From contig OZ020585.1 in NCBI GenBank assembly GCA_963971535.1, positions 27,489,693-27,553,692 of the forward strand: a DNA stretch of 64,000 nt. Direction: 5' to 3'. Shown here one piece after another: positions 31,201 through 61,690 of this stretch. The notes under the pieces were generated by a model that was given only the letters and a program-made list of their open reading frames with translations, was not told the DNA's origin and did no database searches. This DNA comes from Notolepis coatsorum (taxonomy: Eukaryota; Chordata; Actinopteri; Aulopiformes; Paralepididae). A program made the translations under genes and the position numbers. Each line of letters opens with the position of its first letter. The stretch's first letter is position 1.

Positions 31201-31401
31201 TTATAAACTAGTCTCTACCACTGGAGCAGCGATGGCTGCGGCTGCTGTCGTCTCCTGCTCTGCTGCCCCCTGCTGGCCATTTCTGAGACAGATCTCCTGT
31301 AGCAGGGGTGAGTTGGCGTCCTTCCACTGTTTGAATCGGTCAGAGTTGAGCCCCGGGTCTGACAGTACCTGCTCTATGGCCTGCAGGTCTGTCTCTTTAG
31401 A
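31201..31401 (-). CDS. ipcef1: ipcef1 last coding exon
   Basis: Sixty-six codons and a TAA at 31203-31201. It begins [18 protein letters not shown], then [16 protein letters not shown], an Ala-rich stretch, and ends VVETSL. It parallels CKEHDLAMINQLLDDPKL of IPCEF1. The terminal ETSL fits a class I PDZ-binding motif (T at -2, L at 0). The acceptor is ctttggtccag. Confidence 0.93.
   Translation of the reverse strand, partial: SKETDLQAIEQVLSDPGLNSDRFKQWKDANSPLLQEICLRNGQQGAAEQETTAAAAIAAPVVETSL

Positions 31402-61690: not shown

Follow-up and report, generated by a model that had tools for sequence, protein, structure and literature searches.

A CNK3-IPCEF1 locus of Notolepis coatsorum with a candidate choice between two endings at one splice donor

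On one strand of the genome of Notolepis coatsorum the CNK2/3 domain of CNK3 is encoded upstream of the PH domain of IPCEF1, and an in-frame splice path leads from the one to the other. The stretch of DNA analysed, here called the window, comprises 64,000 nucleotides (assembly GCA_963971535.1, contig OZ020585.1, positions 27,489,693 to 27,553,692 of the forward strand). Very probably the gene in it is the orthologue of the mammalian CNKSR3/IPCEF1 pair and forms one transcription unit, the ending of which would be chosen at a single splice donor. Were the donor after exon d (at 56919) left unused, the frame would stay open over 13 more codons before a stop, the product being CNK3; were it spliced to the linker exon at 41263-41224, the IPCEF1 PH domain and C-terminal region would be added and the layout of CNKSR2 would result. 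A CNK3/IPCEF1 protein is already in print, so the finding is known in kind rather than new; the observation is sound with a corrected exon model, and its reading holds in the main points, little of it being new.

The exon chain across the window

The minus strand of the window was read from 61690 to 31201 in three frames, and exons were chained by AG/GT ends and matching phases. The outcome was 13 exons (a, b, c, d, f, g, h, i, j, k, l, n and o; Table 1) totalling 1965 nt, or 654 codons and a stop, which when joined hold one open frame to a single final stop, with 22 and 28 stops in the other two frames. A preliminary description of the locus had given 16 exons and 2100 nt, figures that were not reproduced; the in-frame joining of CNK3 to IPCEF1 that it claimed is borne out by the open, phase-consistent chain from 61690 to 31201 and by the independent identification of both halves.

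As to that identification, the Pfam domain CNK2_3_dom occupies residues 16-213 of the joined protein (311.4 bits) and covers the 3' half of CNK3, and the Pfam PH domain occupies residues 244-336 (56.9 bits). For the PH part the best structure match is the human IPCEF1 PH domain 5mr1 (E 1.5e-41), with the next entry at 1.2e-13. Human CNK3 and IPCEF1 sequences, which served as a guide and not as an independent source, align exon by exon, exon f being too short to score. The chain of the preliminary description begins mid-gene, since the SAM- and CRIC-coding exons lie outside the window, upstream; located with a human guide query, these exons when joined give SAM_1 at 58.9 bits and CRIC_ras_sig at 120.7 bits (Pfam). 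PDZ exons gave no match beside the window, where one stretch reads N, which would account for the PDZ part being unseen. In human, OPRM1 is a near neighbour of IPCEF1; here no match to an OPRM1 query had an E value below 0.88 across the window and 100 kb on its CNK3 side. The protein end, VVETSL, resembles a PDZ ligand of class I, and a PDZ-binding motif has been described at the C-terminus of CNK2A.

Two repeats may be recorded. A perfect 656-base TG/CA repeat (30469-31124) follows the last stop codon of the chain at a distance of less than 100 bases, and the near-identical broken translations at 63139-62739 and 36904-36507, about 26 kb apart, suggest copies of one interspersed repeat.

Table 1. 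Features of the CNK3-IPCEF1 locus (window positions) and of the second locus (positions in C8)
Feature	Position	Strand	Description and basis
Exon a	61587..61690	-	CNK3 part; phase 0 in, 2 out; AG/GT ends and frame; matches human CNK3 guide sequence
Exon b	59198..59385	-	CNK2_3 domain; exon chain and Pfam
Exon c	58326..58412	-	CNK2_3 domain; phase 1 out; exon chain and Pfam
Exon d	56919..57172	-	End of CNK2_3 domain; ERSLL at donor GTCAGT, phase 0
CNK3-only tail	56877..56918	-	Read-through of exon d donor, 13 codons and TGA; conserved with C8 locus
Exon f (linker)	41224..41263	-	40 nt; phase 0 in, 1 out; homologues at the CNKSR2-type loci
Exon g	38598..38767	-	Start of IPCEF1 PH domain; entry phase 1; chain, Pfam and structure match
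Exon h	37114..37187	-	PH domain; exon chain and structure match
Exon i	36116..36187	-	PH domain; exon chain and structure match
Exon j	35601..35665	-	End of PH domain (WLNKLG); exon chain and structure match
Exon k	35331..35455	-	Acidic, proline-rich; weak match (E 0.024) to human IPCEF1 guide sequence
Exon l	33876..34269	-	Variable IPCEF1 middle; weak match (E 0.004) to human IPCEF1 guide sequence
Exon n	31856..32046	-	Conserved C-terminal region of IPCEF1; chain, human IPCEF1 guide sequence, C8 comparison
Exon o	31201..31401	-	C-terminus VVETSL and stop; chain, human IPCEF1 guide sequence, C8 comparison
Second CNK3-IPCEF1 locus	C8:129230001-129250000		Without exon d splice donor and without recognisable linker exon

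The linker exon and its counterparts at CNKSR2-type loci

A PF06663 search of the genome gave 13 matches at five places, C6 (the window locus), C8, C21, C29 and C43, and pieces of the last four were fetched and compared with the first. The division into CNK3-type and CNKSR2-type loci is a working one, drawn from exon matches and a CNKSR2 guide sequence. A linker exon is present in four of these five CNK2/3 loci: the window, C21, C29 and C43. The basic linker which the preliminary description likened to that of CNKSR2 is supported and corresponds to exon f, which has a homologue entered in phase 0 and left in phase 1 at all three CNKSR2-type loci found in this genome; the homologue reads SLRTKTKKRSKG in C43, SLQSKTRKKSKG in C29 and SLLSRSKKKIKG in C21, each with its donor in the same phase as that of exon f, and the entry phase at these loci, where the exons before the linker were not located, is taken from the reading frame that the acceptor opens into. 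When scored by a profile from which the tested locus was left out, the linker was top of its stretch in all four (36.5 with a runner-up of 21.5 in the window, 39.5 and 24.0 in C43, 41.0 and 18.5 in C29, 31.7 and 21.7 in C21). With a profile of the C43 and C29 exons only, exon f is the best stop-free position on that strand in 15.9 kb, its 36.5 comparing with 21.5 for the runner-up and 12.0 for the next position of that stretch with usable splice sites; the match is beyond chance.

A CNKSR2-type PH exon comes after the linker in C43 and C21, and in the piece of C29 that was read no PH exon was seen. The window locus and CNKSR2 (CNK2) have in common a CNK2_3 domain, a basic linker exon of phase 0 in and 1 out and then a PH exon, whereas for exon d with its CNK3 tail a tblastn search of the pieces of C21, C29 and C43 gave no match below E 0.05. 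Was the joined arrangement then the older one? The preliminary description had proposed so, and, since the linker has homologues in the CNKSR2-type loci, in the same phases and at three of three, a fused ancestor is favoured; going by the linker exons within this genome, the fused CNK3-IPCEF1 would be the older state. That CNK3 and IPCEF1 were separate in origin and became joined later is extremely improbable. Among the loci of this genome nothing was found in its favour, and a second joining would have had to recreate the layout, complete with a same-phase linker exon as in C21, C29 and C43 and with a PH exon after it as in both loci where that stretch was read (C21 and C43). Against a separate origin, too, is a 2023 paper in which four genes, CNKSR1, CNKSR2, CNKSR3 and IPCEF1, are given as paralogues.

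For the fusion a single linker exon suffices. Of the two linker exons of the preliminary description the one ending at 41224, as that description placed it, is supported, and the other, at 52628, breaks the frame and can be dispensed with, an in-frame path from exon d to exon f existing without it. With the canonical donor GTGGGT the latter candidate (52591..52628, minus strand, 38 nt) introduces a frame break between the phase-0 exons d and f and was rejected; its only open in-frame version found, 52628-52587, follows an acceptor, stays open over its 42 nt and ends at the weak donor GTGCCC. A fusion by way of both linker exons, this version included, is very improbable, GTGGGT being the better donor and the direct splice already being in frame.

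The intron from exon d to exon f is 15.7 kb long and the linker exon only 40 nt, so that the linker could be seldom used. A 1.1-kb minisatellite (40085-41192; 22-base unit, about 54 copies) starts 31 bases beyond exon f on its intron side and might have an effect on the splicing of so short an exon.

Two proposed endings and a second locus

Read through its donor, exon d would acquire the CNK3-only tail, the counterpart of which in C8 is GGWLARLRLLSH, with its stop one codon earlier than in the window. Over 12 codons the two tails have 2 identical, 5 with silent differences and 5 with residue changes (window/C8: V/G, S/G, I/L, K/R and T/S, three of the five being conservative), a codon pattern that, on those 12 codons, appears to fit translated sequence, and the end of the human CNK3 guide sequence aligns to the tail at both loci. 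The first two tail codons, V and S (GTC AGT), which in the window are the splice donor too, are not conserved in C8. As exon f also opens with VS, LLVS is common to both predicted products. We infer that both transcripts, CNK3 and fusion, would be made, and the explanation offered in the preliminary description, that the two-gene view is an isoform effect, is a possible one, since reading on from exon d leads to a conserved ending of its own. Weighing against the model of two endings is the nearest AATAAA/ATTAAA beyond the CNK3 stop, which is 1210 bases away. The exit of exon c and the entry of exon g are both in phase 1, so skipping of exons d and f could join the halves too, both here and, it may be, at the C8 locus.

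In C8, exon d with its tail is followed about 15 kb on by exons that resemble those of IPCEF1 and code for its PH domain and its conserved C-terminal part. The exon d donor position there reads GGCGGC versus GTCAGT in the window, and in the 15.1 kb between exon d and the PH exon, an interval that has no N, the profile search recognised no linker exon, the best scores being 23.0 without splice sites and 15.7 with them, set beside 31.7 to 41.0 for true linker exons. RAKNNKRKGRKG was considered as a linker and rejected, its 15.7 being below a background of up to 23.0 and its acceptor having no pyrimidine tract before it. By its frame the PH exon of C8 starts in phase 1, and the C8 frame continues past ETS in the stretch read. 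For this locus to yield a fusion, its linker would have to be a diverged one, or splicing would have to skip onward from exon c; with the donor absent and no linker recognised, the copy may be truly split. Two CNK3-type and three CNKSR2-type loci are compatible with a duplicated fish genome, and we offer, tentatively and as a possibility somewhat short of probable, that after duplication the window locus kept both endings and that C8 lost donor and linker and became two real genes.

Could the window itself hold no more than two adjacent separate genes, with the linker a relic or a product of chance and the fusion at most a rare read-through? The conserved stop of exon d is in keeping with this, as is C8, where, with no donor and an unrecognised linker, the halves can persist unjoined. 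A relic, however, is expected to decay, and in the linker an open frame is preserved along with acceptor, donor, phases and a basic sequence common to the CNKSR2-type loci; a fusion protein has moreover been described in mammals. We regard separate genes as unlikely and retain the reading of one unit with two endings.

The mammalian protein and what the locus may offer

In mammals CNK3/IPCEF1 was reportedly described as a single protein by Attar et al. in 2012 (Exp Cell Res 318:228). Fusion protein or joint translation of CNK3 and IPCEF1 is mentioned in PMC6996405 and PMC4549309, and according to published work HGF-driven Arf6 activation in mammalian cells needs CNK3/IPCEF, with recruitment of cytohesin 2 being proposed; by analogy, a role involving Arf6 and cytohesin 2 may be supposed for the protein of this animal. 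The likeness to the mammalian case is that the same two coding regions would give one protein. The differences are that here there is an exon-level model in another vertebrate, predicted from genomic sequence, and that this genome has a second locus seemingly unable to fuse likewise. Among the titles and abstract openings that a literature search returned, no work on the fusion in fishes was found.

The analysis speaks for regarding CNKSR3 and IPCEF1 as a single gene that can end in two ways, a view that bears on annotation, on expression counts and on how human association signals at the locus are read, PMC4549309 being one study of such signals. The apparently split copy in C8 makes joined and unjoined scaffolds comparable within one animal, and if the proposed history is true, the alternative endings of one gene, divided between duplicates, would be a natural test of the joined scaffold.
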